Source: Nemophila menziesii
Taxonomy: Eukaryota > Streptophyta > Magnoliopsida > Boraginales > Hydrophyllaceae
Assembly: GCA_029959085.1 (NCBI GenBank)
Contig: JARWIR010000031.1
Span: 7,378,001 to 7,442,000 of the forward strand
Direction: 5' to 3'
DNA: 64,000 nucleotides
Shown here in pieces: positions 1,446 through 49,459 of this stretch; positions within the stretch are counted from its first letter, which is position 1, and every line of letters begins with the position of its first letter. Under the pieces are notes generated by a model, which did not search any database, was not told the DNA's origin, and saw only the letters and a list, made by a program, of their open reading frames with translations. Both the position numbers and the translations under genes were made by a program.

Positions 1446-1490
1446 TCTATATTATATTTCAGAGTTTTTTCTAGTGTCCAGATTTACCCA

Positions 1491-1575
1491 CATAAGTGGT
1501 GGCTAGGATTAAATCTGGCTAAATATAAGTGGTGACCAGGATTTAATCTGGCTAAACAAAAGTGGTGGCCATGAT
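1491..1575 (+). repeat. Helitron 1 5' subterminal tandem repeat
   Basis: About three imperfect units of 34-35 bp built on the core AAGTGGTGGCCAGGAT. They lie about 45 bp inside the Helitron 5' end. Units with the same core recur at the 5' end of Helitron 2 (7343-7435) and in copy B near 50433-50500. Confidence 0.8.
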
Positions 1576-1692
1576 CATTTATGATATCATTAATACTATT
1601 AATTAATTAACATTTTAAAAAAATAATACTAATAATACTAATAATCTCTATGATAAAGTTTTCCTTATTCTTCTCAATCTCATTTGTACGTT

Positions 1693-2442
1693 TAGGGGTG
1701 AGCATGGTTCGGTTCGTCTCGATTTTTGGCCAGAACCGGAACCGAACCGAATATTTCGGTTTTTTATAATTTAATAACCAAACCGGGTGGTTCATCTTTG
1801 GTTCCACGTTCGGTTTTTGGTTCCAAATTGGTTCGTTTTGGTTCGGTTTTGGTTCGCTTCGAATTCGGATGCTTGGTCAATAATATTTTCACCAATTTCT
1901 CGAAATACATTGTCCAATAGAGACTAATATTCCAATACAATTATGCTATTATTACTTGTCCACGTGGACTATTAATATATCAATTAAATATAACCTTATA
2001 ATCTAAAAATACTTATCTTAATTTACAATACTACAATAAATTTAAATCTATTACTTCCTATTTCATACACTCATGATTTATAAAATCAATCAAGTAATGA
2101 ATACTTATAAGCTTAAGTGATATAAAAAAATTCTCACTGATAACACCATCAAATAGTATAACTAAAATTTCACGTATATGATAAATTCTTAACAAAAGTT
2201 TCTCCCACATAATTCTTATAAAAGAAGTTCACACATTCCCTATTTTTTCATTCGCTAGTTCGGTTTTTTTTTGGTTTTTTTGGTTCGGTTTTTATGTAGT
2301 AAACCGAACCGAACCAAAAAAATTGGTTTTTGAAAAATTAAAAACCGAACCATTTGGTTATTCGGTTTTTGTTATTTTGGTTCGGTTTTTTTTGGGTTTT
2401 TTAGTTCGGTTTGGTTATCTGGTTCTCATTTGCTCACCCCTA
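1693..2442. mobile_element. hAT-type MITE, non-autonomous
   Basis: A 750-bp element with perfect 12-bp terminal inverted repeats (TAGGGGTGAGCA at the left, its reverse complement at the right). It is flanked by the 8-bp duplication TGTACGTT (1685-1692 and 2443-2450). Eight-base target duplications and this short TIR are typical of the hAT superfamily. Subterminal regions are packed with GGTTCGGTT motifs in both orientations, which could be transposase binding sites. No transposase coding is visible. Copy B keeps a single TGTACGTT at 50598-50605, so this is a clean insertion into copy A after the duplication. Confidence 0.95.
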
Positions 2443-2659
2443 TGTACGTTAAACAAAAAATTTAATACTATCTCTTTACACTTGCATTCGAACAAAAAAA
2501 CAAATCTCAAATCTCTTCACACTCACTTTCCACACACCAAATCCAATCTACTGCATAAGAGACCGCCCCACTCAAACACCAAGCCGCTCTTATGCACAAG
2601 AAAACCGCCGCCACTCAGGACCTCACCTTCCCACACCAAGCCGAATCGCCACCCTTCTT

Positions 2660-3420
2660 CCGGCGAAGTGGTTCTTCTTTGTTCTGCATTAGATCTTCTC
2701 TTTGTTCCGGCGATAAAACAAAGTTAGGGTACATCCAGTTTAATGAAACGGAGTCGTTCTTCTTTGTTCTACTTTAGATCTTCTCTTTGTACCTTGAACA
2801 AAACCAGTAACATCTTTCCTTTTTTCTTTTATTCTTCAATTTCATCTTCTAAAAAACACTTCTTTCCGGCAATAAAACAAAGCTAGGGTACATTCGGTCA
2901 TAATGAAACAGAGTGGTTCTTCTTTGTTCTGCTTTAGGTCTTCTCAAAACCAGTAACATCTTTCCCCTCTTTTTTTATTCTTAAATTTAATTTTCTTATT
3001 CATTAGGTATACTTCATATCCGCAGCTTCTAAAACAAAACTGGCGATGTTGTTCTGCTTTAGATCTTCTCTTTGTTCCTTGAACAAAACCAGTAACATCT
3101 TTCCCCTCTTCTTTTATTCTTCAATTCCATCTTCTTATGATGTGTGCATTTACTTCATATACGCAGCTTCTAAATACCCCCTTTTCCAGCGATAAAACAA
3201 AGCTAGGGTACATTCCTCATAACAGAACTGAGCTTGCCAGGCAGAAATGAAGAAGCAAGGCCCAGGCATCCTCCACTTAATGCTGACTGAAACTGAGTGG
3301 TTTTTCTTTGTTCTGCTTAATATCTACTCTTTGTTCCTTGAACAAAATCGGTAACATCTTTCCCCTCTTCTTTTATTCTTCAATTTCATCTTCTTATATA
3401 TCCTTTGATGATTACACAAT
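2660..3420 (+). repeat. Degenerate tandem repeat inside Helitron 1
   Basis: About five imperfect units of roughly 90-250 bp. Each begins with a TTCTTCTTTGTTCTGCTTTA-like core followed by AGATCTTCTC, 'AAAACCAGTAACATC', a pyrimidine-rich tract and often 'AAAACAAAGCTAGGGTACATT'-like text. Starts lie near 2670, 2757, 2916, 3050 and 3300. The array is conserved in copy B (about 50805-51540). No protein-coding pattern is visible. It may be a multiplied UTR/intron piece of a captured gene, but that is a guess. Confidence 0.7.
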
Positions 3421-4257
3421 GAGTATTGTTATTGTTATTGAGTTCTTCTCTGTATGTATCTTTTACTTTTGCCAATGTTTAATCACTATTTACACGTTGA
3501 TGTAAATTACTTTTTACAGTAAGTTTTATAATGCATTTTTGAATTCTATTGCAGTAAATGTGTTAGCGATTTGCAGTAAATATCCATTCGCATCATCTGA
3601 TTGAGTGAGCAATTTGGTCTTACACTGATTGGTAAATGCTTTATAATGCATTTTATAATCCAAACACTGATCTAAGTAGATAAATGTTTGAAACCAAACA
3701 TTGATTGGTAAATGTTTTATAATGCATTTTTCTTAAACTGTACGTTACGTTTTGGTCTTACACTGCAAATTTCGAATGATTTTGCAATAAATATCCATTT
3801 GGCACAACTGCTGGAGTGAGCATCTAAGTGTTATAATGCATGTTTTGAATTGGACCAAAAGCTAATTACATTGAAACATGACGAGACAGGAGCATACACG
3901 AATATATTACAATATATTACAAGACGTTTTACAAAGATTAGGAGCAAATAATAGTACAAGTTTATTAACTAATCTCAAAGCTTAAGCTTTTGAAGAGAGT
4001 CTAGGTTTAGTTATTTAGCTTAGTATAACTTACGATTATTATTTTTCTTTTTTATCCCTTTCCCGACACTTTAAATCTCGAGTTATTGTAGGTAATAGCT
4101 GCTACAGTGGCGGTTTTTATAGTAGATGTAAAACTCGCGTCCATGACGAAAATGATACACAAATGAAGAAGAAGTTACTCTTTCTAGCAAGAAGAGTGAA
4201 AAGGGTAAAAAAGGAAAAATGGGTTGGTGAACTCAGATTGCATAAGAATAGAACAAA

Positions 4258-5330
4258 GTTAATATATTTCTTTCTTACAGGATGTTTGTGTTTCAGTTTC
4301 TCACCTTGCTGATTTAATATCAAGATCGAAGCAAGAGCTGATGCTTCACCGTTAACATGGTATACAAGCCTTAAGCATATTTTTTAGTTATGAAATTAAT
4401 TTTTTTTGCTAACTCCTTTTGTTTATAGTACAATAGTTGCATATGCAGGTGATAGGAATTTCCACACTTTAATTTTATTTCTTCTGATAAAGAATAGAAA
4501 AAGGTGGCTCATTGTGTATGAAGGGAGATTTGCAACAATGGTCCCTGAGGGGCAGATTTGCAATTAATTGTCTTCATTTGTAAGTAGAGAGTGGTTTGAT
4601 AGCTACGCGCACATCTATTTGGTTAAAGGGAATAGTAGAAGTTGATGATATTTCACAAATCATTGAAAGATATCATGGTATGTAGGATATGTTTTGTTAT
4701 TTTAGAAGTTGAATGAATTAATTAATTTTTGTTTTGGATTAAGGGTTTCGCCATGAGATATATCCAATTGATGAACCGAATAATAGGTTGATGAAGAAGA
4801 TTAAGAAATATGATAGTTCGACATTGAAGCACGAGACAAAGTTTCTTTAAGACTTGATGCCATGTCATCATCAATGCTTAGCTTTGTCTTTAAATTATCA
4901 GATAATGCCTTTAGACACAATTTAGTTCATACTACCCACTAAGCACAGCAAGATCAGTTGACATCATTTACAAGTTTTTCCAGTTGACTCTGTTTTATGT
5001 AAGTAGGAGGAATATATGTTCCATCTTGATCCAGTTGCTCAGTTATACAAATATGAACATGACCTAGAGTTGCTAAATCCAAAAAATCAGAATTTGATAA
5101 GAAATAGCCAAAAGAGTGATATGAATGGCTCTTTTGTGCACTCAAACATCTTTATGGGTGCTACAGAAGTTGTACTTTGGATCCCAATTATTGAAGAACC
5201 AAAACGCAATTTATGGACGCCATATGAATGAGTTCTTCCTCAGCTGTAACTACAATAATGACAAGTTCAAACGATTGAAGAGCTGAGTTGATTATTAAAG
5301 ATGATAGTACGAGTTTGATATATACTCTTT
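4258..5330 (+). pseudogene. Exon-like fragments of an unrecognised gene in Helitron 1
   Basis: Several short stretches read like decayed plant exons with intron-like AT-rich gaps. Near 4280-4345, after an acceptor-like TTACAG, the frame gives a peptide containing SHLADLISRSKQELMLHR. Near 4620-4680 a frame ending before GTATGT gives IVEVDDISQIIERYHG. From 4745 comes HEIYPIDEPNNRLMKKIKK, and near 5016-5230 a 71-codon frame. Copy B preserves additional residues (near 53345-53480, containing RAELIIKDDSTSLIYTLF). Frames are broken by stops and indels in both copies. I could not assign a family; a protein search with the copy B pieces would be the test. Confidence 0.4.
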
Positions 5331-5392
5331 TCTTTTTTTTTCTTTTTTTTTTGGGTTACATGGGTTCCGGGATAGCTTGCGCGCACCCGACT
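5328..5392 (-). mobile_element. SINE 3'-end fragment (copy A)
   Basis: A T-rich run followed by the reverse complement of the SINE 3' end seen at 49802-50033 (shared text GGTTACATGGGTTCCGGG and GCGCGCACCCGACT). Only about 40 bp of the body remains. Copy B retains in its place about 70 bp of apparently ancestral sequence (around 53421-53485). So a SINE inserted in copy A, and a deletion then removed its 5' part together with neighbouring DNA. Confidence 0.7.
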
Positions 5393-6358
5393 AAAATAGT
5401 CATGTTCTGGTACACAATTTGATGCTTTTTCTTATAGAATGATTAGGCTTCAACTACATAGCAAAAACAATTGCATGGACAAAATTTTGATATTTCCTTC
5501 AGTTGCACAACCTTATCCCTCCCTCTTTGTAATGTTCAGAGGTTCCTAACTCAAAATTTGTGTTAATCTGACCAAAAACAATGATTGGATGTTTATAATG
5601 CTTTCTTTCACATGAAAAATAATTGTTAATCTGACAAAAAAAAATTGAGTGAGACAGATATAGATTTTGGATCTAAGAAATCTACTACTTGAGACCATTC
5701 AGATTGTTGGCGAATTAATTTCAGACCGTTGGTCTTTCAAGATTGATACAGATATAATTGGAAATCGCCATTTTTCAAATCTTTGCTAAGATAAATTTCT
5801 CTTCGTTATTTACAGTTTTCTCAATCATATATAAAGATATTCAACTTCATATGCTTAATGATTCATAAAAGCGTGAAGTTGTTCAACAAGTTCAGTATCT
5901 AAACTTATCTCTTACAATTCATCTTTCAAAAATAATAAACATTAATTTAGTGGATAGTGGATATTTAATGATGATAATTGTTGATATTTTGAGTTGGTTG
6001 GAAAAAAAAGTGTACTACTAAGATACAGAGGTGTGTGCAAGTTAGGGAAAATGTTTTTGCTCAGCAAAAGTTTTATATTGAAAAGCATTAAAAGAGTTTG
6101 ACAATGTACAAGGACTAAGCACCATCCAAGAGGATGATTTAATTCGTGAGTTGCTAAGGGGCTCTTCGTGAAAAGTTGAAGAGGAGGTCGGTAGCTTCCA
6201 AAATCACGCTTCCAAAATCACGCTTCCAAATTCACACCAGGGACCTCAGTGAAAATAACGACAACCAAAAATGTTGTTGTGATAGGGAGAAAATATGTGA
6301 ATTTTTTGTATAACAACTATAGTTGTACGTGATTCATATGGTGAGTCATCATCATCAT

Positions 6359-6516
6359 TTTTTTTTCGTACGAGGGTTCCGGGCGTACACCCGACTAGTC
6401 CCACAGAAGATATGACTGCCTCCCCAACCATACCTCCAGGCAAATTAGAACTAGGTTGCCCATGTACCTCTCACTTGAGAGACAAGCCCTGGCCAGATGA
6501 GCTAGCTCACTTGGTT
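6359..6516 (-). mobile_element. tRNA-derived SINE (copy A)
   Basis: Reverse-strand SINE with its A-tail appearing as a T-run at the left. Read on the minus strand, it starts near a box A-like TAGCTCATCTGG, and it ends with GGGACTAGTCGGGTG and a CCGGAACC-type 3' end before the tail. Flanks are ATCATCATCAT on both sides, consistent with a target duplication, though the flank is itself a simple repeat. It is transcribed by RNA polymerase III when active. In copy B the 3' half has been deleted (remnant about 54145-54245). It resembles Au-like plant SINEs, but the family assignment is tentative. Confidence 0.75.
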
Positions 6517-7258
6517 ATCATCATCATCTTAATCCATCAAATTCCTTATCTCATCTCTAATATATCTATTTTCACTCATTTTAACTAGGATAAAGTATAT
6601 GACTATTGCACTTCACGTGAGCAAGATTTCTTATCATATATGGAGTGTTATTGTATATTAATAAATTATTTGGCTAGAAAACACAAATTAAGGTCTTAAT
6701 TTTTAAAAAAAATTATGTAATTAAATCTCTAAAAGAAATAAAGGGTGCATGATAAGTTCAAATGGTTTGATACTTCAAAAGTCCACAAAATGCATAATTA
6801 TTGACAAAAAGAATAGTAAATGAAATATTACTAGATTCAACACACAAAAAAGAAACCACTGATTGTTTTCCTATTATATACACAATGTGATTCCTCCTAA
6901 ACAAAAAATTTTCTTGAAGAGAAAGTATGCAAGACTCAATTGATATACACAATGTGATTCCTCCTAAAGAACGAATTTTCTTGAAGAGAAAATATGCAAG
7001 ACTCAATTGATTTAAGCACGTGTCTTTTATTTTCACCAATTTTAAGGCCATCGTGTAAGATCTTGGCACCATCCAACATAGCCTTATAAACTGACAAATC
7101 TAAGAATACGATCCACAATTAACTCTCAAATACTTACACTCAGATCTCCTACAAATGCAATGACACTTCATACATTAGTAAATGATTTAGTAGTCTAGGG
7201 TGTGTTAGCTATAAAGGATGTACAAATTTCCAAAGACCTAACTACTATTAAATTTTCA
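6517..7258. other. AT-rich 3' part of Helitron 1
   Basis: Contains a short local duplication: ACACAATGTGATTCCTCCTAAA followed by TTTCTTGAAGAGAAA-type text occurs at about 6882-6930 and again at 6946-6990. No gene is recognised; conserved in copy B at 54240-54990. Confidence 0.55.
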
Positions 7259-7288
7259 TAGTGTCTTCAGACACTAGGTCATACCTAA
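7259..7288 (+). other. Helitron 1 3' terminal hairpin
   Basis: Stem TAGTGTC/GACACTA with loop TTCA (7259-7276), then GGTCATAC and the terminal CTAA. In Helitrons this hairpin acts as the rolling-circle termination signal. The copy B version is identical in stem and loop (ending at 55024). Confidence 0.85.
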
Positions 7289-7342
7289 TATATATATCTA
7301 TATTATATTTCGAAGTTTTTTCTACGGTCCTGATTTACCCAC

Positions 7343-7435
7343 TTAAGTGGTGGCCAGGATCGATTCTAGGAAAACATAAGTGGTGGCCAGGATCGATTCT
7401 GACAAAACATAAGTGGTGGCCAGGATCGATTCTGG
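7343..7435 (+). repeat. Helitron 2 5' subterminal tandem repeat
   Basis: Three tandem units of about 34 bp sharing AAGTGGTGGCCAGGATCGAT, beginning about 47 bp from the Helitron 5' terminus. They are more homogeneous than the matching units of Helitron 1, as expected for a younger copy. Confidence 0.9.
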
Positions 7436-7439
7436 CCCC

Positions 7440-8522
7440 ACTTATTAATTTTTTTTTTTTTATACAAAACACGTATAACTCTCGAGAGCCGCTCTCCTTC
7501 ACAAGACCGTCACTACCCATCACCGTTCTCATCGCCGCTACCCATCAGAACAACCTCATTCACTCTCCTATCGAAACCCTCTCTCCTTCGCTCTCCATCA
7601 CCGCTCTGCTGCAAAAGAAAACACGCCGCCGCTCGAGGACCATTCTCCACCAAGCCGCTGCTCGAGGAGCATTCTCCAGCAAACTGATCTGCTGTAAAGG
7701 AAAACACGCCGCCGCTCGAGGACGATTCTCCACCATCATCGAGGGGAATTTTCGACCATCAACCACCCGGCTTGGCTACACCATCAACAATCGGAGAACC
7801 CAAATTAAAACACACTCACATTTCCACCAAGCCGTTCTCTTAATTTGTAACCTAATCTCATTTTTTTCACCTCTCCACTCACGATTCTAAATTAAGGTAA
7901 AATCTTTCCTCCCTCTCTCTGATTGATTTTTCTTTTGGGGTTTTACTTTTGTGTTGTTGCAATTTTATTTCAAGTGCAGTTTTAGATTGGTTAATGGACA
8001 TGTGAGCTGCTCCTTCTTCTTCAACCTTCGTAATAATTTTTCCTTTCCCAAGTTTGAATTTATATACATACATATCATCTCTGTAATTGCAAATCTTAAT
8101 TTCTAAATTTTTACCCCGATATTTCTTGATTGCGATCTACACCTATGCATATAATTTATTTATCTATTAATTTTCAGTTATATTTACTAATCTATATTCG
8201 AGCTTAAACGAATCTCATTGCTAATTGTCTTAATTGGTCTGTATATGCATATATGTGCGTCTTTCTTCCATTTTCTTTGTTAAGCTTACTTTCTTCACCA
8301 ATAACAGTACTGGGTCTTTCACCAAACCCCAGGAATTTAATCTTTCAAAAGCCCTTTTTTTGTATACCGATGAAACTCAACAAATTAACCAGGCTCAGCA
8401 TACAATCTTCTTAGTTTGTAGCTTTCTCTTATCTTCAGGGCCCAAAAAACACCAAAAACATTGGTAATTTATCACAACTCTCTTGGGTTTAATTTATTGC
8501 TTAATTTAATTATTGATTATAG
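7440..8522. other. 5' captured or leader region of Helitron 2
   Basis: Includes a GC-richer block (7480-7770) with repeated GCCGCTCGAGGA/ATTCTCCACCA text. It is followed by sequence that looks like leader exon plus introns (GTAAAAT after 7893; an exon-like GGCCCAAAAAACACCAAAAA at 8440 before GTAATT). This could be the 5' part of the L18a-like gene, but I cannot show it. A 209-codon frame here starts in Helitron 1 and crosses the element junction, so it is not a native gene. Confidence 0.45.
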
Positions 8523-8810
8523 GACAAGCAGATCATGAAAAGGGAAAATATGCTTTGAGTGATCAGAAGGAATATATGACAAGCCTCTTCCTTGCTTTGG
8601 TTGTGGAATTGGATGGTTTTCGTGAGTATTTTCTCTTTTTTTTACCCTTTATTTACGTTTTTAATTTTATTTTATTTTTGTAGTTTTTTGGTTGGGTTTT
8701 TATGCCCATTAATGTGGTATTACGCAACTATACTATATTTTGGAAATGATTATCGTAAGGATCCTAGGGAAAGAGCAGGACTAGCTGCTTCTGCAATTGC
8801 TGTAATTTAA
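8523..8810 (+). pseudogene. 60S ribosomal protein L18a-like protein, captured fragment
   Basis: Two exons can be joined cleanly. The first (8523-8621) gives an acidic/charged DHEKGKYAL segment, then, after a one-frame slip, PCFGCGIGWF, and ends at a GTGAGT donor. The second (8684-8810) starts after TTTTTGTAG and gives a hydrophobic LCPLMWYYATILYFG segment followed by YRKDPRERAGLAASAIA. These are signatures of the plant membrane protein family annotated as '60S ribosomal protein L18a-like', which is not the ribosomal subunit itself. A stop at 8808 and the frame slip show that it cannot make the full protein. Same strand as the Helitron. Assignment is from memory of the family, with no search. 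Confidence 0.8.
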
Positions 8811-8972
8811 TTTATTTATTTTCAATTGCTTTTCTTGAGTGAAAAATTTAATTGTGGTGCTGTGAATTTAATTATTACCTAGAGATAACCATTTTAGGCT
8901 ACCTAGATTCTTTTAACTTATCAATTCTATTTCTTTTTTCTCCATTTTAATGGTGTTTAATTGATTTTTCAG

Positions 8973-9157
8973 TGATAGAGAAGATACACAGTGACCGTAA
9001 GGAAGGTTAACCTGATGTAGGTAAGGTTGAAGTAATTGCACTATAGGTCCCTATAATTTATTCTTAATTATGTTTTGTGTTTTTTTTAGTTGTTTGGAAT
9101 CCATGGGAGAAGAAATCAAAAGCTATGGTGGATTTTGAAGATGATGAATATAAACAG
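8973..9157 (+). pseudogene. Glucose-6-phosphate 1-epimerase-like, captured fragment
   Basis: Two short exons, 8973-9020 and 9090-9157. The first is bounded by TTTTTCAG and GTAAGG, the second by TTTTTTAG and GTATTA. Joined, they keep phase (gta g + tt gtt) across the intron and read through VVWNPWEKKSKAM and DFEDDEYKQ. That is the conserved C-terminal-half segment of plant aldose-1-epimerase-family glucose-6-phosphate 1-epimerases, which interconvert the alpha and beta anomers of hexose 6-phosphates. In the first exon an in-frame TAA sits where the family has a leucine codon in a GLPD motif, probably from a small indel. The rest of the enzyme is missing. No promoter is recognised. Confidence 0.83.
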
Positions 9158-9291
9158 GTATTATTTAGTTATGTAGTATTATTTGATTGTTTTTAATCAC
9201 CATTTTTTTATTAATTCTCCATTTTTCATGTTTTGTTCATAACAGGTATGGAGGTTAGCATGATATGGAATTAAAGGTGTTTATTAACTAG

Positions 9292-9876
9292 GCTGCACTG
9301 GATCATCTAATTCAGAGGAAAGATATTGACCCAAAAAGAATAATAGTCTTTGGAAGATCACTTGGTGTAGCCGTTGGTTCTGTTTTAACAAAAAATAATC
9401 CTGAAAAGGTATTTATAGATGTGCTTCAGTTTCAATTTAGTAGTACATATATTTAACATGTACTTTTGTACTGTTAGGTTTCTGCTTTAATATTGGAAAA
9501 CACTTTTACATCTATTCTGGACATGGCTGGAGTATTACTTCCCTTTCTAAAATGGTTCATTGGAAAAATTACTTCAAATGGTCCGAAACTTTTAAACTCT
9601 GTAGTTCGTTCACCTTGGAGTACAATTGATGTTATTGGTGAGGTGAGAGATAATTAACTAATTAAACATTTAATTAAATATCTTTATTTGCTCATTATTT
9701 GGGGAATTTGACTACAGATAAGACAGCCTATTCTTTTTCTGTCTGGATTACAAGATGAGATGGTCCCACCATTTCACATGGAGTTACTTTATGCTAAAGC
9801 AGCTACAAGGAATAAACAATGCTTATTTGTAACATTTCCCACTGGTATGCATATGGATACATGGTTATCCCTGTAG
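9292..9876 (+). pseudogene. WAV2: WAV2/Bem46-type alpha/beta hydrolase, captured fragment
   Basis: Three consecutive exons, 9292-9408, 9478-9642 and 9718-9876, with proper GT/AG borders and no internal stop. They encode about 146 residues of the C-terminal half of the plant WAV2 family (membrane-linked Bem46/ABHD13-like hydrolases; Arabidopsis WAV2 modulates root bending). Visible features are the nucleophile elbow GRSLG (Ser codon 9358-9360; the usual last Gly is Val), LILENTFTSILDMAGVLLP, the acid in GLQDEMVPP (Asp codon 9754-9756) and the His in GMHMDTW (9850-9852). So the whole catalytic triad is kept. A TAG at 9874 ends the frame about 25-30 residues before the family's usual C terminus. 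The N-terminal half (lipid anchor/TM and oxyanion part) is missing except for a possible remnant at 9246-9280. Truncated, so probably non-functional. Confidence 0.9.
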
Positions 9877-9917
9877 GTACATGAACATCTGAAGCTTTAG
9901 TAGAGGACACATTGAAG

Positions 9918-10262
9918 AGGTTCATTTGAAACATTTAGATGGACACATTGAAGAGGTAAGAATGGTTCTATTTTTTACTGTTTTCTTAACTTTTACTAGG
10001 GTTCTTATTTATCCAATCATATGTTTTACTTTCACTAAAACAGGTTCCTTATTTCTTTTTACCAGCTAAGGAATTAGTTGATGTGATCGCATCATCTTGC
10101 TACAGGTGGGATAATTAGCATTTCTCTATTATAGAATTAGATGCCATTTTTCTAATTTATTTACACGTGAATAAATTTTGAGATTAACATTTATTAATAT
10201 GTTAACTTTTTTTTGGGTGTCACAGCTGTTTTGACTATATTGTGAAGTTAAAAGTATGCGAT
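9918..10262 (+). pseudogene. HCAR: 7-hydroxymethyl chlorophyll a reductase (HCAR), captured fragment
   Basis: Three exon pieces: about 9918-9955 (VHLKHLDGHIEE, donor GTAAGA), 10044-10105 (VPYFFLPAKELVDVIASSCY, acceptor AAACAG, donor GTGGGA) and from 10226 (CFDY, acceptor GTCACAG) to a stop at about 10260. Together they match a conserved block of chloroplast HCAR, the ferredoxin-dependent Fe-S flavoenzyme of the chlorophyll cycle that reduces 7-hydroxymethyl chlorophyll a. The Cys-rich SCYxCFDY stretch is retained across the last junction. After CFDY the frame diverges and stops, so the capture broke off there. A short direct repeat (GGACACATTGAAGAGGT at 9905-9921 and again at 9940-9956) lies at the upstream capture border. 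Confidence 0.85.
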
Positions 10263-10600
10263 TAAAGGTTGTCATGGAGGAAGAGTTAGAATAGATAGTG
10301 GTTATAAGAATGTTGTTGTATAATAATTTTGTATGTATATATATAATATAGATATCTCTTAGTAGAGAATCGATTAATGGATTTAAAAGTCACTTTTGTT
10401 TATGTCAATACTTTTAAAAATCATTGCAAAGATATCTATTTGAAACCTGTTTTTTTTAGTTAGTTGCACTTTAAGTCTCCGTATTATACAAAAATTACAC
10501 TTCGTGTTTATATTATTTTGCTATAAGATAATTTTATTTCTCTTATTGTGTTATATCTTTTCAAACTTTTGAATTTTGCCTATTCTTTTTTAATTGGATA

Positions 10601-10627
10601 GTGCCTTCAGGCACGGGCAATACCTAG
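10601..10627 (+). other. Helitron 2 3' terminal hairpin
   Basis: Stem GTGCC/GGCAC, loop TTCA, then 13 bases ending in CTAG with T following. Compared with Helitron 1 the stem differs by a compensated T-A to C-G pair, so pairing is maintained. Confidence 0.88.
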
Positions 10628-11230
10628 TATATATATATATATATACACGACACAAATACCATTCTATCAAATTTTAATATTAATTTAAGATATTTAACAC
10701 GATAACAATTTATTTAGACAATATAAATTTATGTTATGTATAATATTAATTATTTTAATTATTTAATGTATTATATTTTATAAATTTTAACATATATAGT
10801 TTGATTTATTTGTCTAATGGAGTGTCTCTTTACTTCACATTATTTAATGACAGTTTTTTGGATTTAATCAAAATTGAATTATATATCACTATATATGTCA
10901 ATTTTGACATAATATTAATATATTAATGATGATATAAAAAACAAAGATGACAAAAAATAAATTTCTTCTTTTTACAAAGGCTAATCAAAAAGTTTTTTGA
11001 CATTTTATATTTGTTATCAGTATATTGTCAAGAATATAAGAGATCCCATTTTGAAAGTTCGTTCTAAGTTCTTTAAAATGTCAAGATAGACCATAAATCT
11101 ACTTTGGTTAAAAACACAAAAGAAGGATGGCTCATCCAATGTATCTAGGGTGCAAATAATTAAGGATTACATATTATAAATCATACAAAAAATTGAATAT
11201 TTATTACAACAAAAAATTTGGCGCAACATA
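10628..11230. other. AT-rich non-coding DNA
   Basis: No gene seen. It starts with the TA-rich Helitron target. Matches copy B 55089-55680, where the TA run (55025-55088) is uninterrupted. Confidence 0.6.
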
Positions 11231-13290
11231 ATTTTTTTTGTCAAAAGAACATCTTACATAATACCATTAATACAATGATTAACAATGAAATTAAAAGAAC
11301 CAATTAACAAGAAATATATCCAGTTAGAAAGATCCACATTTCTTCTCGTGCACTTTGCCAATGAATCCGATGTAGTACTGAAATTCCTACTAATATGGGC
11401 GAACTTCCATAAGGGACATTGAACTAACCATCTTCTAATTTCAGCTTGAAGAGGTTTGAGACTCCAATGGAGGTCGATCAATTTTTTAATGCCTTGAACT
11501 AAGTCAAGGTTATCAGAGTAGAAAGAACAACTCTGAGAAATGAGATCACTAGCTAATCTCATGGCTAAAATAATGGCCCAAGCTTCACCCTCAATCACAT
11601 TATTGACATAACATCTATTATTTACCCTTGGAGAAATACACCCCTCCTTTAACCCAATAACAATGAGGATCACTGGATCCCATTCTTTTTTAGAGGATGT
11701 GTCACAAACCCAAACCATTTCTGCATCATCGTTAAGAACACGATTCTCAACACCTTCTCCGTCATTTCCATTACCAATTTTGCCTCCCTTTTTCTCCTTG
11801 TTGCACATACCAAATAACCTTGATATAAGATCATTGGTATTGCGTGATACACGCAATTTCTTATTCTCATGAAAGCACTTCATTCTTTCTTTTCAGTTGT
11901 TCCAAGTAGTAATAAGAATATATACCGTAATAAGGTTTTTATCCCATCCGTTGTCTGAAAAACAAGTAATAGTAAGAAGTAAACACTTTGCAAACTTAAT
12001 ATTCGCATTATTGTCAATTTTGATTTGCATCAGAGAGGACGACAAAACTTGCATACTAAAGGGGCATTTAAGAAGAAGATGTTCAACAATTTCCACGTCT
12101 AATTCACACCACTCACAAATATTATTGTTCACAAATCTTCTTTTTTTAGATTACATTTTATTGGGAAATCGTCGTTACATATTTTGCAACACAAATTCTT
12201 AACCTTGGCCAGAACGTTGGCTTTCCAAATGGTATTCAAAATAAAACTCATGTTAGCCTCTACACTATTGGATGTATTAGCTTCAAAAGAATTTCTTCCT
12301 CTACAGTCGCATGATAACCCGATTTAGTGGAATAGCTCCCTTTCTTACTTAACGACCAAAAATTTTTACCCTCCTCATCCAATTGCATTATGTGGATTTT
12401 CTTAATCAAGGTGAAAATATAAGACGGGAACAAGGAGTTAAGAAACTCAAGGTTACACCCTGACATATCGTATTGAAAAGCTCATTAACCACCATAACCG
12501 AGCAATTGATGGTTGTTCAACACGAATTCCTTTGACAATCCAATTATGTTTCCAAATATTAACCAAAAAACCATTACCAATTTGAAAAAATGTGTATTTT
12601 TTAAGAACTGAATTCCTTTGTACAAACTTGCCCAACTCCATAATCTTTTTTTATCAAATTTGGCATCCCAGATGTTACAATTTGGAGAATAAATACCTTT
12701 GAGAACTCTAGCAGTAAAAGATTCAGGTTTGTTGATAATTCTCCATGCATGATTAGCCAGCATAATTAAGTTCATTTTTTGGAATCTCTAAATCCAAGTC
12801 CACCAATTATTTTAGCCCTTAAAGTTTTTATCCACACAACTCAATGAATTCTCTTTTTACTTTTAGAATCCCACCGAAAATTCGAAACAATACTAGAAAA
12901 TTTCTTACAAAGACATTCATGAATTTCAAAGATAGACATCTCATAGTTAGAAATAGCTTGTAGAATAGCCTTAATACGGTCTTCTTTACCACCTTCCGAC
13001 AAGAGACAAGCAATCCAGCTCGTAGATTTAGATATCAATCTATCTTTAATATAATTATGGTTCATAGTCTTTTCCCTTCTTAGAGTAAGTGGTATTCCCA
13101 GATTTTTACCAAGGGACTTGGTAATACTAATATTAAGTTTTTACGAGACCTCCCTACAAATATTATATGTAGTACCATTACTAAAAGAATGGCTGATTTT
13201 TGGAGGTTAATTCTTTGACCTGAAGCATTACATATATTGATTATTTGGTTATCAAAAATTCAACACAACTTTACATGAGGAAAATCTCCA
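11231..13290 (-). mobile_element. L1-type LINE, 5'-truncated and decayed (copy A)
   Basis: Minus-strand remains of the second open reading frame of a plant L1-like non-LTR retrotransposon. In coding order: the end of the reverse transcriptase and its thumb region (13065 down to 12480; SGQRINLQKSAIL-type text, then MNLIMLANHAWRIINKPESF and ARVLKGIYSP), the zf-RVT zinc-binding motif (12132-11893; CEWCELDVEIVEHLLLKCPF), and an RNase H-like domain (11883-11254; EGEAWAIILAMRLA, YSDNLDLV). It ends in A8 at 11231-11238 (seen as T8). Frames are interrupted by stops and shifts. No endonuclease or main RT core with YxDD is found, so it is 5'-truncated. Copy B carries the same element at 55680-57690. 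Confidence 0.8.
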
Positions 13291-15038
<1,748 letters not shown>

Positions 15039-15431
15039 CGTGAGGAGAATTGCCGCCTCACTTTTAAAATTTAGCTAGCTAAATTTAGTATAAAAAAACA
15101 TAATGATAGAATAATAGAATATATACCTACATTCTTCTTTCTATCGGCTCTCCCATCTCTTTCTCTCTTAGAACATATACACTCGAGCTCTTAGTGGGGT
15201 AATTGCAACCACATAGTGCGTTCTTCTCCCTTCTCATATGTATGTTCTTCGGGGGATTGGGGATTTAAGGCCCCATGACTTCAACCTTAATAAAATAAAA
15301 CCCAACCCCCATTTCCCATTACAACCTCACTAGAAGAAGGCAAAAAACCCAATACACCCCCTTCTCCTTTGTTTTTACGGTGAAACAAACCAAATCAAAA
15401 CAAAAACCCCATATAGCGATTTACCACATCT

Positions 15432-15433
<2 letters not shown>

Positions 15434-15484
<51 letters not shown>
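15434..15484. repeat. (CT)n microsatellite
   Basis: 51 bp of CT repeat just upstream of the pyrimidine-rich LTR target. The copy B counterpart (59822-59908) is longer. Confidence 0.95.
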
Positions 15485-15489
<5 letters not shown>

Positions 15490-15606
15490 CTCACAAGAAC
15501 CACACCTTCATCAACAAGCTTCACCGTCCCCTCCTCACTATCATTACCTCCACCTTCTCACCATCCACCTCCACCTTCCACCTCCACCTTCCATCTTCAC
15601 CACCAT

Positions 15607-15992
15607 TGGTGTCGCCTAGGGTGTGATAAAAATAAGATAAAATAAAGTCTAGAAAACTACGCACTCTCACCCTAGACAGGCACAATACTGCTAGTATTAC
15701 AGGACGTATGCAAGTTTTAGTTAGTAAGTTGAGTTCGTTCTCAGGGACTTAAGTGTGCTAGTCGAATAGGTAACAATAACGAGTAAACAATAATTAATTA
15801 AAAGACAGAAAAGTAAAGAGAGAATAAATTCGAAATTAATTAAACTAAGAAATTAAAGACAATAAAATAAAAAACGAAGAATATGAGATGAGAAATATAG
15901 CTTAGGTTTTGCTAGTATGCACTAATTCTTCTAGTTCTTTCTATTAGATCTAGTTAATAAGGGAGAATATTAGCTCTTGTATACTTAGTCAG
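15607..15992 (-). mobile_element. Truncated LTR (copy A version of the solo LTR)
   Basis: Starts with TGGTGTCGCCTAGGG directly after ACCAT (15602-15606), exactly as the solo LTR in copy B. It covers only the first about 386 bp (the LTR's 3' end, since it lies in reverse). It then jumps at AGTCAG to flank sequence that in copy B lies beyond 62076. A deletion of about 1.68 kb with 2-bp microhomology (AG) explains it. Confidence 0.88.
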
Positions 15993-17690
15993 CATCCGAG
16001 ATCTATTTGTTTTTTCTTGTGATTAATGCTTGCTTATTTGCAGGTGAACAGAGCCCTTGGGTCCAGCCCCCTTTGGATCCAACCCTTTGGGTCTAGTCCT
16101 TTGGGTTCAGTCTGATAATTGTGTTGTAGCAAAAAATCTATTTTTTGATCCTATGAAATCTTTTTTGGTAATTATCAAGTTACACTTAGGAATGTTTGTC
16201 ATTTGTGTTTCCGAAAGTTAAAAATTCACTATATTATTTAAAAATTTAAAAATTACACACTGATTTGTTAAATTTGCAGGTAAAAATGGGATAGGGTCCA
16301 ACCCCTTGGTTTTATAATGTGAAAGTGTTAATATCTTGATGAATCCGGATAAAAAAATTAATATATAAAAATTTATTCAAACACTTCAACATGAATACAA
16401 CCCATAGGGTACATCATTGGACACAGACATGGACATATAAAAAACGAGACTTGGGTACAAACCCTATTGTATTTGGACTATCACATGGACAAAATCCGTT
16501 AGGACACGGACAAACACTAAATGCAATTATATAAAAAATCCTTTCACATAACTTAAATAAATTAAAAACCAACATAGGTCTGTATCTATGGGTACGGGAT
16601 CTATCAGATTATTGAAAAGAAAAAAAAATAAAAAAGGGTAAAGTTGGAAAAAATACAACCAAAAAGTGAAACTAGGCACTATTAAGTAGGTTTTTGTAAT
16701 TAGGCTTTAAAAATTAAAAAATAAGTTATGTTAAATTTAGGCTCTAATTTGTATATTCCTCATGTTCTTCTTCCTCTCGTGATTCGTGTACTAGGCCAAC
16801 TCTAATTTCACGAATTATGAGTTATGTCTAAAATTGTTGATTCATTTATTGGAAGTTATCAATTCGTAAATCTAGTATTTTTTAAATGCTTTGTATAAAC
16901 CTAATGTTTAATTTCACCATTGGTCCCTGCTTCACGCCTTATTTTGGTTAATTGGGTTCAAATGAATCATTGGTCCCGGCTAAATATTTTCTATACATTC
17001 CCAGGCAATTTTTGGGTTTCTGATCACGATCCACTCATATGAATTATTAATGGTATCTCTCTCGCAAGTGTATTTGGTAACCAACATTTGTTGTCGTAGT
17101 GGAAACCAAGTAAGTTCTCATTATCAAGTTACACGTAAAAAAAGTATTGTATGTGTATATCCGTTTACATTCGTGATAGAAGTTAAATCTTAATGTCTCA
17201 TTTATTGATAATTCTATAGTTCATTCACAGTTTAGAAACTTTTTGCTATATGGGGGAATGTCAATTGGATTTTATGTTAGCCACTGGGTTGTTATTACAC
17301 TTCCTTCATCTGGGATGTACATGGTCATGTTTCACTTGAGTATTAGTTGACTATGTTTGTATGCTCTCTTTCCATATTGCAATTTTTTTTCATACATATA
17401 CACTACAATTTTCACACAAACTAGCATGACCTCGTTTTAGCTTATTGTAGTGGCTGGATGAGACCCGTGTTAGCACCAAAATATTTCAGATATACATACA
17501 GATAAAGTAAGATCAATATTATTTATTAGGCAAAACTTTTAGGTGGGCCTATCGTGTCTACAATATTAATATCTCTACCCAAGATTTGAACACATGAAGA
17601 ATCTGAGTTTTGTATTCAAAACTTTTCTATCGAAAACTCCAAGGTCGTCGAGGAAGCCATTGCGATGTGGGTAAATGTTTTATATTTACC
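15993..17690. other. Non-coding DNA, conserved in both copies
   Basis: Contains repeated text of the type CCCTTGGGTCCA / CCTTTGGGT (16040-16110, 16290) and intron-like AT-rich sequence. No reading frame is recognised. Copy B counterpart: 62075-63770. Confidence 0.5.
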
Positions 17691-17767: not shown

Positions 17768-19350
17768 TGATGTCTCCCTAAATGTTCTAATTTTATGCCA
17801 TTGGGAGACATCATTTTTGGTGTTTATTTGATTATTTAGATAGACTTTTGGTGCTAATAAGCAATAATCCGGAATTTCCATTTTATTTCTAGTAATTTTG
17901 ATTTATTAAACTTTTACGCGTAATATTGGTATTTTTAGTGTAAAGTTTACAGGTTTTAGATGTTAGCTAGAAGAGGAATCCGAGGAGAAAGTCAAAGATC
18001 ATGATATGGAGTCAAGACTTAAAGATAAATCCCGAAGATATTATTTTTAGAGCTGAAAATCTATTTTCCAGGCCATAGATTGCTGATTTCGAGGTGCTTA
18101 AGAGATGATTTAGCCGCTGACCCTTGAAGAGATTATGTTCCTTATCGAGTTACGGAACTTTAGCAACTGGAATGAGGTCAATCGGGGTCATAACGAAGCG
18201 GGAAAAGCCGTTTGAGTGAAGGTGTATCAGCAGTTACGGGATTTGGGCTTAATTAGTGGACTTGGGCTTTTCTAATTTTTACTTAATCCTTAAGTAAAAG
18301 CCCTAATCCGATTTTATGATTATAAATAGGTCTTTAGACCTCATTATTCAGTACCTCTCATTTTATTCTTCAAATTAAATCATCATTAGAAGAGAGCGTC
18401 CAGAGAGAAAGTCAGAAGCAAGGAAAAGGAGAAAGTTTAGAGCTGGAGAAAGTCATCTTCTCCAAATCACAGCCAAACCCGATTCTTAATTAGGTTCTAT
18501 CTTTTATTTCTGTAATTGAAGAACATGAATTCTTTCTGTTTTAATTTAGTTTTTCTTTTTAATATGAGCTAAGCTTTTCATAGTGCTTGAGAACAAACAA
18601 TGGGTGAATCCTAATTTTATGAAATAACGAATGTTGAATTTGGGTTTTTATTGAATTAAACTAAATTAGGGCTTTTACTCTTTTCAATAAATTGAGATTA
18701 TTTTACTGTTTTTAGCGTCATGAACTAGCAACAGGTGTTAGTATTTAGGCTATTCCAATTAGTGGCAATTGGATCATCCTGACGGAGGGTTTAGATACAG
18801 AACCATTTATTCAATCTAGGATAGAAGTTATTGATTCTGACGAACTTAGCTAATTCTAGGGCCAATGAGGTAATAAAACTTAAACATCCAACGGTGGATC
18901 ATATTTACCCTGACGGGACTAGTGACACTTTAGGATCGCCTTATAATCCACCCTAACGGGGGTATAAGGAATTTAGAATCTCGACCATTGTAATTGACCA
19001 ATTTAGCCCTTAAACAACATAAGTTAGGAAATAAGATTGGGAGGATCCTTGCGTTCTCAAGTGCTACTTCTCATATTGCGTTTTACATCATTTTACTTGC
19101 GTCTTAGGTTTACTTGCATTTAATTATTTGTCTTTTATTCATTAGCTTTAATCAACAAAACCAAACAAACATTTTATAGTCTTTTATTTTCATAAGTGCA
19201 TCAATCACTATTTGCTAGACATTGTGATCAACCATTCCGTCCTTGGAACGAATCTGATTTATTAGTTATTACTACTTGGGACAACCGTACACTTGCGGTT
19301 GTGGTTCGATTTACATTTTCATTTAATTTAGAACACACAAAGGACCACCA
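17768..19350 (+). repeat. 5' LTR of young element
   Basis: 1583 bp, TG...CA ends. A TATA box (TATAAATAGG, 18321) lies 550 bp into the LTR, preceded by the self-complementary TTAATCCTTAAG/CTTAAGTAAAAGCC area. This marks the likely Pol II promoter, with R starting about 30 bp downstream. Confidence 0.95.
18321..18330 (+). promoter_or_regulatory. LTR TATA box
   Basis: TATAAATAGG in the 5' LTR; the identical motif in the 3' LTR is at 23992. Related LTRs in the window also have TATA-like motifs in the matching position. Confidence 0.7.
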
Positions 19351-19356
19351 AGTTTT

Positions 19357-19374
19357 TGGCGCCGCTGCCGGGGA
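19357..19374 (+). promoter_or_regulatory. Primer binding site, tRNA-Asp type
   Basis: TGGCGCCGCTGCCGGGGA, 6 bases after the LTR end, complementary to the 3' end of plant tRNA-Asp at 17 of 18 positions. Asp priming is usual for Athila/Tat-type elements. Confidence 0.88.
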
Positions 19375-19511
19375 CGGTAGCGTGTGACCACGGTGTTTAT
19401 CCTTTAGTGACAGTTGCATTTATTTTTATTTTTCAGTTTTACGCGTGTGTTTGTTTTGTTTTGTTTTTACAGGTGCTTTATTCAGGTAATGATCAAGAAA
19501 TTTAATTAAAG

Positions 19512-20756
19512 ATGTATAGAGGACATTACCCAGATCCCGATCCATATGACTATTGGGAAGACTCTTCGGGACAACAACAATGGGGTAGTAACTTCTACCA
19601 ACAACCTTATCAATACCCGCAAGAGCAAGGATGGAACAATCAATGGATCAGAAGTACTCAACAACAAACACCATATCACTATCAACACGAGCAAGAATGG
19701 AACAACCAGTGGGTTGAAAACATTCAACAGACTTCACCTCAACACTATCAGCAAGAGACACTACTAGAGAGAGTTAATCGCCTACGCGAGGAATTTCAAG
19801 CAGGAGAACCAGAGCGTAAGGCAAGAGATGAGGAATTCAAAGCCACCCATGCACTCATACAACAGAGCCTAGATCAAATGGCTGCCCGAAACAACCCTCC
19901 TAACTTAGTTGAAACTGGTAGTATGTCTTATGAAGATTCCACTCCCCCGAGGGATAGAAGAGATCAACTGGAAGAAGTAGTTGAGGAGGAGGTGTTGAAG
20001 GAAGATACTATTGATAGTGATATGACCATCATGCCGGTTATAAATGAAGACCACCATGTGGTTAACAATCCTATTAGCATGGTGGAAGAAGGAGTAGCAA
20101 CAAAAATCCTAGAAATTGAAGCTGAGATTTCTATTCCTATGGTGCGTGCACATGATCCAGAGACTGAACGCAAACAAGAAGAAGAGGTGATCGAGATTCA
20201 GATTCCACATCGAGAATATGATGAAGTAATAGTGGAAGATTGGATTGAAAGCGAAGACGAATGTGAAGTGGTTGAGAAATCAATTGAAGAGTTAAAGCTT
20301 CATAATAAAAGAGAAATCGAATTCCCACCACAAAAAGTTCACCAATCCCTATCTCCACCACTAGTCATCATTAGAGATAAAATATCGGAATCACCTCTAT
20401 TATTAAAAATGATCAAGAGGTGTTACGCAAGAAAGGTGCTACACCGCGAGAGTAAAGCGGCAAGGAGAAGCACCTACCCACCACACTTTAAAGAGGAACG
20501 CGAGATTAAAGAAAATACAAATGAGCTTATACCGTCGAGAACGGTTATCTACTATCGTGTGGTGAAGAACGAGTTTCGCCATGAAAGCAAGAAGGCGAAA
20601 CGGAGATACTACCCTCCCCCTTTCAGAGATCGATTGAATAAAATTTTATGGGGGAAGGTTTCAAAGCTTACATGCCAAGGACGAGGCGAATTCAAGCGGA
20701 GGAGAACCGCAAGGGCCTCAATACCATCTTCATGGAAGGTAACGCGTCGAACTTAA
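19512..20756 (+). CDS. Gag-position protein of non-autonomous LTR element
   Basis: An intact 414-codon frame beginning 138 bp after the primer site; the first ATG after it is used. The N terminus (about 1-75) is rich in Gln, Tyr, Asn and Trp, with a repeated QEQ-W-N-N-QW pattern (three copies). Residues about 80-130 are charged and probably coiled coil. An acidic block (about 145-270) contains EVIVED. The C-terminal third is basic (K/R-rich, with YPPxF motifs near 325 and 365). I see no CCHC zinc knuckle, protease DSG/DTG or RT motif, so it is not a typical Gag. Homologous decayed pieces occur at 30050-30720 (minus) and 33285-33500 (plus), so the protein belongs to an element family. A role in RNA packaging or particle assembly is only a guess from position. 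Confidence 0.75.
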   Translation: MYRGHYPDPDPYDYWEDSSGQQQWGSNFYQQPYQYPQEQGWNNQWIRSTQQQTPYHYQHEQEWNNQWVENIQQTSPQHYQQETLLERVNRLREEFQAGEPERKARDEEFKATHALIQQSLDQMAARNNPPNLVETGSMSYEDSTPPRDRRDQLEEVVEEEVLKEDTIDSDMTIMPVINEDHHVVNNPISMVEEGVATKILEIEAEISIPMVRAHDPETERKQEEEVIEIQIPHREYDEVIVEDWIESEDECEVVEKSIEELKLHNKREIEFPPQKVHQSLSPPLVIIRDKISESPLLLKMIKRCYARKVLHRESKAARRSTYPPHFKEEREIKENTNELIPSRTVIYYRVVKNEFRHESKKAKRRYYPPPFRDRLNKILWGKVSKLTCQGRGEFKRRRTARASIPSSWKVTRRT

Positions 20757-23420
20757 AGACGTAATAAACAAAAGTGTTTCTTGGGAGACAACCCATGCTT
20801 TAAATTGCTTTCATGTCTTTTAAATTCTTAGTGTAAATTAGAGTAATGGTTATTTATTTAGTGTTTATTTGTAAGAAATGAGGAAGGTTGGTGTTTTTGA
20901 TGATTACAGGAGTGAAGGTCACGAGTTTGGGGTACCTAGAACGAAAAAGAATGAAAATTTTGGGTTCCAATACAGTAGAAACCGGGTACCCGGTTTGTAG
21001 AATGCGGGTACCCGTTTTCGGTGCTGTACCCCAGGTATCAAAACTTCGGAAGATCATAACTTGACGCTCGGAGGTCGGAATTAACTTTTTCTTGAGCCTA
21101 AACCGCATAACTTTTCGAGCTCTATCCAATGGTGAAGTCGAAAATTTCGTATGAACAGCTAAAAGTTTCTGACCCAGCGTTTTGAGGCCCGACATTAGTT
21201 GCGTCTCGTGGTTGCGTCTCCACTTAGCACCATTGATGACGAACCAAAGCTCCAAAAACACTTAAATTCCATCATCAAAACACCAATATATCACCAATCC
21301 TTACCTCTAAACATCATCCCAACACATAATCAATCACAAATCTTTCCAAAAACACCAAGAAATTCAAGTTTTAACCCAAAAATTTCTTCACCAAAACTTA
21401 AATTATATCCTTTAAACCTTTCCAACACCATAGATATTAAATACCCATCTCAACTAAATCACAAATTCCACTACTGTGCCACTTTCAACAATATCAAGAG
21501 ACACAAATTTCATCAAAAGCTTTGGTAATTTGAAGGTTGGAGATTGCAAGTGCAAGGTATCAAATCATCATAAATTCCATGGCCAATCCGGTAAAATAGC
21601 TAGAACTATTCTTTTATTTCTATTACCAGTTGGGAATTAAGATTTATTTTAGTTATTTAGCGGAGGAATTGTGAATTGTTTGAGCATATTAATATTATAT
21701 ATTTTGCAAGTAATCTTTAAGTAGGTGAAAAATTGAGTTTGGGGTCATCAAAGATGACCATGAAGGTTGGAAAAGGTACGAAGAACATGATGAAGATAAA
21801 AAGTTGGATGTTGAGGAAAGCTTTTCGTAGAAGAGATGATGATTTAGAGGGTTAGGAAAAGATGAAGACTTGGAAAATATGACATGAGAGTTCGAAGTAT
21901 GCAAAACTTCAACATGAGACTACACGTAATCGGCCTAGTGCCGATACAGATATGTTTTCCTATCCTTTCTCATTTAGTGTATATTAGTTTAATTGCTTTA
22001 TTGAGTCTTTTCGAGTCGTGGGGACACGACTCATTTTTGAGTTTGGGGTGGGGTTCGTTGCCTCATCCCAGTTTTTATGTGTTTATTTGTTTTAATTGCT
22101 TTCAATAAAATAATTAGGAGTTGCGTTTGACTGTAGAAGATTTTAAATGTCCCTTTTAAGCATACTTCTGATGAATCTATGATAGTAGATAGTGGACTTT
22201 AGGGAATAACATAAAACGCACTTACAATTGCATGCTAACATAGGTAATTGATAGGAAAAATTAATGAACAATGCAAATGAAGTAAGCTTGTACTTAAGGA
22301 ATATGTTTGGTGTGTAGAACGTGAAATCCTAATTAGTAGAGAACCCACCTAGATATGAACTAAAGACAAGCTATGTACTTAGGAAAATGATAGGGGCAGT
22401 TCTTTGTTAGCCATTTGAAGCCTTTTAGCTTGCTATCCCTTCTTATAATTTCATCCGTCTTAGCCCAATTTTGAGCCTTAAGCCTTTTCTTTTGTAGCCA
22501 CGATATAAGCCCATTATCCCTTAGATTATTAAGCATGACCAAATGACCCGCACTTGAATCACAACCCTGAGACTTGTCTCGAGCTTGAGTTTGGGGTGGA
22601 GGGTCCACATTTGGGAAATTACATTGGAAAGGGATTATATGTGTTTGTATTAAGGCACAAAAAGGTAGATGATATTATTATTTGTAACCCTTTGCCGGGA
22701 TTTGAATTTAAAAAAAAAAAAAAAAAAAAAAAGAGAGAAAGAAAAAGAAAATTATAAGAGACATGACTTTTCACATCAAAATGATGGTCATGGGTATCTT
22801 GTACAAAAAAAAAAGAGAAGAAATGAAAAAGAAAATAAAAAGAAAGAAAGAATAAAATAAACCGGCAAAGTGGAATATTTTTGGAATTCATCTTAGTCTC
22901 ATTTGGGTTGACATTGGGGACGCAACATTAGCGCGTCAAATGGGTGAGTGAGAACATTTTTTAGCGTAAACTCAAGCTCGAGGACATTGTTGATGGTAAG
23001 TGAGGAGAGAGCCAAAAGCTCACTTCAAATTTACCAAATATACATCCACACCTTCCTTAAGCCATTATTAAAACCATAAAGACCTCGTGATTCCTAAGTG
23101 CATAGTGAATTTATGATTCTGTTGATAGGGAATACGCTAGGTGGAGCGTTCAAAGCGAGTTAGGATTAATGACCACCCTATAGCCATCATACAGAGATGA
23201 GTACAAGTGTAACCTTCAAGCATTGCGACTTTAATTTTATGATTGAGATTATTTATGTTTGATGTTGCATTATTAGTGTATGTATATGTTAGTTCTTAAT
23301 GTTTGCTATATGAGATTTATCTTTAGCATTGCTTTAGGGTTTATTTGCTAGCTTCTATTTTCTCTTGCATCTACTTCATTCCCCTTGTTTTATTTAATTT
23401 TGCTTTGTCGGGACGACAAA
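20757..23420 (+). other. Long 3' non-coding part of young LTR element
   Basis: Starts with the motif GTCGAACTTAAAGACGT...TTCTTGGGAGACAACCCA, which follows pol in Athila/Tat-like elements and recurs at 33965-34015 and, reversed, at 29975-30040 and 40085. Next comes a block with palindromic GGGTACCC repeats (20988-21020), then AT-rich text and an A-rich tract (22708-22731). No coding seen. Confidence 0.7.

Positions 23421-49456: not shown

Positions 49457-49459
<3 letters not shown>

Follow-up and report, generated by a model that had tools for sequence, protein, structure and literature searches.

A 64,000-nucleotide stretch of the Nemophila menziesii genome, called the window here (C206:7378001-7442000, in a genome of 1.517 Gb and 361 contigs), contains a 3331-bp non-autonomous Helitron that carries pieces of five unrelated genes, all in one direction. 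The genes are TIC40, an L18a-like membrane-protein gene, a gene for glucose-6-phosphate 1-epimerase (G6PE), WAV2 and HCAR. The parts of the element and its empty counterpart are as follows, with C and L numbers denoting contigs and loci of the same genome.

7297-10627, plus strand: non-autonomous Helitron, 3331 bp, absent from the duplicated copy at 55024-55089
7297-7440, plus strand: 5' end with three 33-bp repeats (7341-7439), beginning A|TCTATATTATATTTC
8280-8504, plus strand: TIC40 piece A, exon 1 (transit peptide) to 8463, then the start of intron 1; 92.9% identical to C148 gene L016
8506-8813, plus strand: L18a-like membrane-protein piece, exons 8523-8621 and 8684-8801; 90.1% identical to C264 gene L017
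8840-8998, plus strand: TIC40 piece B, last part of intron 1 plus 26 nt from the start of exon 2 (VIEKI.SDR); 90.6% identical to L016
8996-9156, plus strand: G6PE piece, rest of an exon to 9020 and exon 9090-9157; 158 of 161 positions identical to truncated copy L029
9280-9869, plus strand: WAV2 piece, exons 9292-9408, 9478-9642 and 9718-9869 with introns; 94.9% DNA identity to C24 gene L014
9866-9917, plus strand: WAV2/HCAR junction, running into a 17-bp direct repeat (9905-9921 and 9941-9957)
9918-10237, plus strand: HCAR piece, exons 9918-9955 and 10044-10105, next exon starting at 10226; 91.0% identical to C321 gene L018
10235-10627, plus strand: 3' backbone ending in a hairpin (10601-10614) and CTAG; common to L009, L019, L020, L039 and L040
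55025-55088, plus strand: empty site, (TA)32, in the duplicated copy

The DNA from 7297 to 10627 is a real non-autonomous Helitron that sits at an A|T junction within a (TA)n tract, and its borders are established by the sequence itself, since a matched empty site is present. A duplicated copy of the region, 44-48 kb away in the window, reads as a continuous (TA)n exactly without the element, with 98.1% identity across the left flank (6407-7308 against 54145-55045) and 95.6% across the right (10628-15995 against 55069-60399). For the flanks closest to the element the Kimura two-parameter distance (K2P) is 0.013 over 879 sites and 0.020 over 5261 sites, and farther to the left of the element it rises to 0.046 and 0.057. 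The occupied copy consists of (TA)4, the element and (TA)9, and comparison with the (TA)32 of the empty copy gives an insertion at A|T with no target-site duplication; one of TA would be invisible in such a tract. At the 5' terminus, TCTATATTATATTTC starts with TC at 7297, directly preceded by A, and at the 3' terminus a hairpin of GTGCC-TTCA-GGCAC (10601-10614) is followed by CTAG (10624-10627) and then T, which is the CTRR end with a hairpin about 10 nt upstream by which Helitrons are recognized. An earlier note on this DNA had proposed a Helitron with TC, hairpin and CTAG|T ends at these positions, and the empty site confirms it. By itself, a scan of the window for hairpin plus CTRR proves little, because its 3 matches, set against a mean of 0.73 in 30 mononucleotide shuffles, are also the maximum reached by the shuffles. 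Comparison of the two ends for terminal inverted repeats gave only AT-rich matches, mostly in the flanking (TA)n, and a six-frame Pfam search found no Rep/helicase domain within the element; the enzyme acting on it in trans would be a RepHel protein encoded elsewhere. Among 35 loci fetched for their similarity to the element or its pieces, 20 have a similar 5' end (at most 6 of 26 mismatches), with A before the TC in 17 of these, and BLAST with the 3' end found a similar one in 9; a regular expression for 3' ends returned no matches where BLAST found some. Genome-wide there were 55 matches to the element, one of them full-length (the best 40 of 3009 candidates being scored).

The first gene piece, the TIC40 transit-peptide exon at 8280-8463, matches over 62 residues at 85% (tblastn E 5.2e-31), with the first three codons absent and one in-frame stop. 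The donor gene on C148 (12.5 Mb of 20.0) was identified through a downstream exon on the same strand, 29 residues of which match the TIC40 structure 2lnm (E 3.6e-10); its remaining exons are presumably those of TIC40 as well. The C148 gene aligns with 8280-8504 and with 8840-8998 and skips the intervening L18a piece, which is therefore nested within TIC40 intron 1. This L18a-like piece has a frameshift in its first exon and deviates at none of 41 conserved columns, and its family was confirmed by protein search. The gene occurs on C264 only (47.0 Mb of 60.7), the other matches being Helitron pieces on C206, C200, C46, C355 and C110 (12 of 12 candidates scored).

The G6PE piece is assigned to its family by PDB entry 2ciq (E 0.003), by aldose-epimerase proteins (E from 1.6e-6) and by a tblastn match of 88% over 26 amino acids. 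Three gene loci were compared with it to begin with and seven more afterwards, and throughout these ten gene-like loci L025 on C329 (49.6 Mb of 55.3) remained the nearest, with 147 of 171 positions. At all 12 sites where at least five of six truncated copies agree and differ from L025, the piece sides with the copies, which fits a dispersed copy as its immediate source; the seven added loci weakened the case for this second-hand origin. In four of the five truncated copies L027-L031, 5'-repeat sequence lies nearby, with a recognizable 5' end in L027 only; some of these loci may not be Helitrons. The comparison nevertheless suggests that a captured G6PE piece can derive from a dispersed copy and not from the gene itself, a distinction that matters when capture rates are counted. 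Elsewhere in the genome, a single G6PE exon (residues ~80-136) is matched dozens of times within G000:C351:3027992-3229452, often at a spacing of about 3 kb, as an amplified exon array.

The WAV2 piece is up to 84% identical to plant WAV2 proteins (among the best 120 of 1195) and, with Peptidase_S9 at 1.7e-11, is the sole piece above the Pfam cut-off in the six-frame scan of the element; a PDB search with it gave no match. Its donor on C24 (17.1 Mb of 36.0), the only multi-exon full-length WAV2 match (21 matches, 19 scored candidates), has exon matches across residues 1-305 of 324, with 82-91 unmatched. A second candidate donor, C264:55842978, was rejected as a distant relative (45% over residues 16-110), as was the coconut protein P0001 as a fusion, since it merely has an internal WAV2 repeat. 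The piece deviates at 3 of 100 conserved columns, a number reached by 8 of 119 real proteins, and two of the three deviations are already present in the donor. HCAR is supported by PDB entry 5dqr (E 1.1e-16), and the homology to the donor stops at 10237. All HCAR matches (13 of 13 candidates scored) lie on C321 or in the sister element on C355, with the gene on C321 only (2.17 Mb of 3.53), where exon matches span residues 14-452 of 452 with 188-204 unmatched.

The earlier note had described the element as a chimera of four unrelated plant genes running in one direction. Its four families are all right, as is the single direction (5 of 5 pieces are in sense orientation), and the number of genes was one too low, the TIC40 exon at 8280-8463 having been missed. 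The first G6PE exon, given as 8973-9021, is a hybrid of 26 nt of TIC40 exon 2 (8973-8998) followed by G6PE, and the HCAR part, drawn out to 10262, is longer than the donor homology. Capture from unrelated genes is borne out by the family matches and by donor loci on five different contigs of the same genome (with L025, the nearest of the ten gene-like loci, standing for G6PE); none of them lies within 1 Mb of a contig end, so the donors are not neighbours in this genome.

Relatives of the element carry various subsets of the same pieces, as read from a 60-bp mosaic table. The sister on C355, L009, matches element positions 1-1445 at 98.8%, 2570-2941 at 97.9% and 2939-3331 at 95.4%, and carries TIC40, L18a and HCAR together with a kinesin piece, without G6PE and WAV2; past the shared HCAR part it has an extra 1.7 kb with further HCAR and kinesin. 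From its position 3424, 81-88 bp of L009 are 94-99% identical to the sequence beyond WAV2 in L010, L011, L013 and L015, a spacer match that points to a deletion in L009, whose ancestor probably had G6PE and WAV2 and then lost both. The loci L010 and L011 match the TIC40, L18a, G6PE-region and WAV2 parts, without HCAR, and the G6PE protein found no match in them at 1e-3; L012 has the TIC40-L18a-G6PE parts, and L013 and L015 have WAV2 alone out of the five pieces. L044 contains the backbone on both sides of HCAR with HCAR itself absent, and kinesin and E2 pieces. The Pfam scan of five elements gave no matches to minus-strand gene pieces, and found further sense pieces of kinesin (L044 and L009), E2 (L044) and, weakly and below the Pfam cut-off, M3 peptidase (L043). 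The element was selected for having one direction, so only the kinesin, E2 and M3 peptidase pieces count independently; the scan also overlooks pieces, L013 giving no hit on either strand despite carrying WAV2. Two of these relatives can be delimited, namely L044:3660-8783, a related Helitron that is complete and carries pieces of a ubiquitin-conjugating enzyme and of a kinesin motor in sense orientation, and L043:266-5092 on the minus strand, with its weak peptidase M3 piece.

The donor and acceptor sites had been described as largely intact, and a script found AG before and GT after the internal exon borders that were checked (the first exon of the joined-exon model being 1 nt too long). A spliced read-through RNA, as suggested in the earlier note, is no more than possible on sequence grounds. 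The joined exons do not form a single reading frame across the genes. The join of the G6PE exon to WAV2 exon 1 keeps the frame, and the longest open reading frame from an ATG in the fully joined RNA has 157 aa, made up of 11 G6PE residues and WAV2 to a stop at 9874-9876; with exon skipping it reaches 184 aa. The stop precedes the next exon border by 79 nt and the HCAR exons would be 3' untranslated, an arrangement that usually invites nonsense-mediated decay. The Ser, Asp and His of WAV2 are retained, as the earlier note had stated, with the qualification that Val replaces the second Gly in the GRSLGG elbow and that the N-terminal half is absent. The product of a read-through RNA would be, at most, a truncated and probably inactive hydrolase, and the RNA would likely be a target of nonsense-mediated decay. 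The changes in WAV2 were also placed on branches, with gapped sites excluded and the majority state taken as the ancestor. Between the donor and the capture ancestor there are 8 synonymous, 0 nonsynonymous and 4 intronic changes, and from there to this element 0, 3 and 4, one of the three nonsynonymous changes being the Gly to Val. In the same order the counts are 3, 8 and 5 for L013, 4, 8 and 2 for L010, 4, 8 and 1 for L011, and 2, 5 and 4 for L015, with L010 and L011 sharing changes. An initial indication of purifying selection in WAV2 (dS 0.086 and dN 0.009 against the donor) vanished with this placement. The donor gene appears to be under constraint; its mobile copies give no sign of this after capture, in numbers small enough for some constraint to be compatible with them.

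The presence of relatives with subsets of the pieces indicates a stepwise assembly, and it is from these partial relatives, together with the observed ends, matched empty site and donor loci, that we infer how the element was built. The TIC40, L18a-like, G6PE and WAV2 pieces would have been gathered in one set of elements, and the HCAR piece would have been joined to a backbone like that of L044, with its kinesin and E2 pieces. A common ancestor of both sets (for which E2 is not shown) would then have lost different internal segments to yield this element and its C355 sister, this element probably losing the end of WAV2, a spacer and the segment with HCAR and kinesin. An origin by recombination between L009-like and L010-like elements was considered and dropped, because L009 3424-3511 makes loss from a common ancestor simpler. 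The insertion itself lies at A|T in the (TA)n tract, close after the point where another Helitron ends, and the gene pieces are most likely decaying passengers. It is highly probable that the element is, in this joint sense, a non-autonomous Helitron assembled stepwise, reduced by deletion from a multi-gene ancestor and loaded with decaying passengers. As one genome contains the donors, intermediates with some of the pieces, a sister that lost other segments and an empty site, the order in which a multi-gene Helitron was put together can be traced step by step. A bolder extension, which is unlikely, is that Helitrons here mainly fuse already chimeric elements, nearly always in sense orientation, and that the six-gene ancestor (TIC40, L18a-like, G6PE, WAV2, HCAR and kinesin) was a splice-competent unit whose transcripts could continually supply new combinations of exons.

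Several points weigh against this account. The order of events comes from pairwise matches and not from a full phylogeny, within the best 40 of 3009 candidates; some relatives may have lost pieces instead of never having had them; and neutral decay of this copy is read from few changes. The duplication could be a mis-assembled second haplotype, in which case the empty site would be an allele and the conclusion would be unchanged. In addition, the 67-bp G6PE exon alone is equally near, at 65 of 67, to the gene L025 and to the copies L027, L029 and L030, so that the difference in the G6PE comparison is confined to the intron and the first exon remnant. This last observation also favors a straight capture of several pieces from host genes, with no exchange among Helitrons, as does the finding of a single source gene each for the WAV2, HCAR and L18a pieces. 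Such a history is unlikely, given that the whole G6PE piece sides with the truncated copies at every informative site and that one part of the mosaic is matched by the L044 type and one by the L010 type. Inheritance of all the pieces from one ancestral gene neighbourhood is scarcely conceivable. Locus tags of L18a-like and WAV2 genes do lie 7-35 apart in five pairs from other plants (Anisodus acutangulus, two pairs in Phlomoides rotata, Solanum commersonii and Punica granatum, among the best 120 of 1195 and of 650 proteins), possibly an old synteny that is absent here (C264 versus C24), but in other listed species, such as Tetracentron, Rehmannia, Lonicera or Melastoma, the tags are far apart or on different contigs, the five donors (C148, C264, C329, C24 and C321) are each more than 1 Mb from a contig end, and separate events are needed to place the L18a piece in a TIC40 intron and to account for the relatives with subsets.

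Another reading is that the chimera works as a gene, selection keeping a fusion protein made from a spliced read-through RNA. The AG/GT borders, the in-frame join of the G6PE exon to WAV2 exon 1, the open reading frame of 157 to 184 aa and the ratio of only 3 nonsynonymous to 8 synonymous changes between WAV2 and its donor could be read in this way. However, all 3 nonsynonymous changes fall after capture, with no synonymous ones beside them, and the 8 synonymous ones separate the donor from the capture ancestor; the sisters have 5-8 nonsynonymous and 2-4 synonymous changes; and the Gly-to-Val change in the nucleophile elbow, the missing N-terminal half and the position of the stop speak further against a working gene, which is very improbable. 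The empty copy at 55024 might, for its part, be an excision scar, the element having been in both copies and having left one with TA repeats behind. The longer TA tract of the empty copy, (TA)32 against (TA)4 plus (TA)9, agrees with this, and somatic Helitron excision in maize with variable TA repeats is reported in PMC10095026, citing Li and Dooner. Excision is nevertheless improbable here, as (TA)n tracts change in length by slippage in any case, both copies can be explained by an insertion into a TA tract without excision, and the reported excisions are somatic. Decaying passengers in an inserted, stepwise-built Helitron remain the best joint explanation.

The phenomenon is known, and the element is a well-documented case of it. 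Earlier work describes Helitrons with several genes, capture in steps, nested termini and chimeric transcripts formed by splicing (PMC3288121, PMC4528327, PMC2575219 and PMC4778049; review PMC13317346). The maize multi-gene Helitrons of Dong et al. 2011 (PMC3288121) likewise have fragments of several loci, a stepwise gain through relatives with shared ends, a CTAG 3' end, and nested or multiple termini, as found here; unlike them, the present element is from another plant with a 1.5-Gb genome, has five pieces with located donors and has its L18a piece inside a captured TIC40 intron. The captured exons of one element could be joined by splicing in maize Hel1-331/332/333 (PMC4528327) as well, where RNA was shown, whereas the element here is known from sequence alone. 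As in the maize Helitrons of Sweredoski et al. 2008 (PMC2575219), relatives retain different portions of one captured gene, but in the present case each of two sisters seems to lack a different part of an ancestor with many genes. Helraiser and HelibatN3 (PMC4778049) share the 3' hairpin, the capture of flanking DNA and the trapping of promoters and exons, and differ in being from an animal, reconstructed, and with a known autonomous source.

The surroundings contain further mobile DNA. Immediately before the insertion lies the following feature.

7259-7288, plus strand: 3' end (hairpin, CTAA|T) of a further Helitron-like element, located 8 bp upstream of the chimera, in both duplication copies

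Within the window 7288-7427 is 84% identical to 1437-1576, and the 3' end at 7288 possibly belongs to an element with its 5' end at 1446. The stretch 1446-7288 is a probable second Helitron, with a 5' end like that of the chimera and a 3' hairpin with CTAA, duplicated with its flanks; in 1446-6453, no credible Pfam match came from three plus and two minus frames. PMC5876387 mentions that Helitrons can be arranged in tandem and head to tail in plants and bats. The large duplication as a whole (1-25173 and 48805-64000) is unevenly diverged, with K2P from 0.011 to 0.057 by segment, and may be a true duplication or two haplotypes in one contig. One copy only holds a long terminal repeat (LTR) retrotransposon at 17768-25023, whose LTRs (17768-19352 and 23439-25023) have 5 mismatches in 1585 columns and for which there is a matching empty site near 63850. 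Both copies, at 6451 and 54189 on the minus strand, contain the hairpin and CTAG|T end of a different Helitron-like family.

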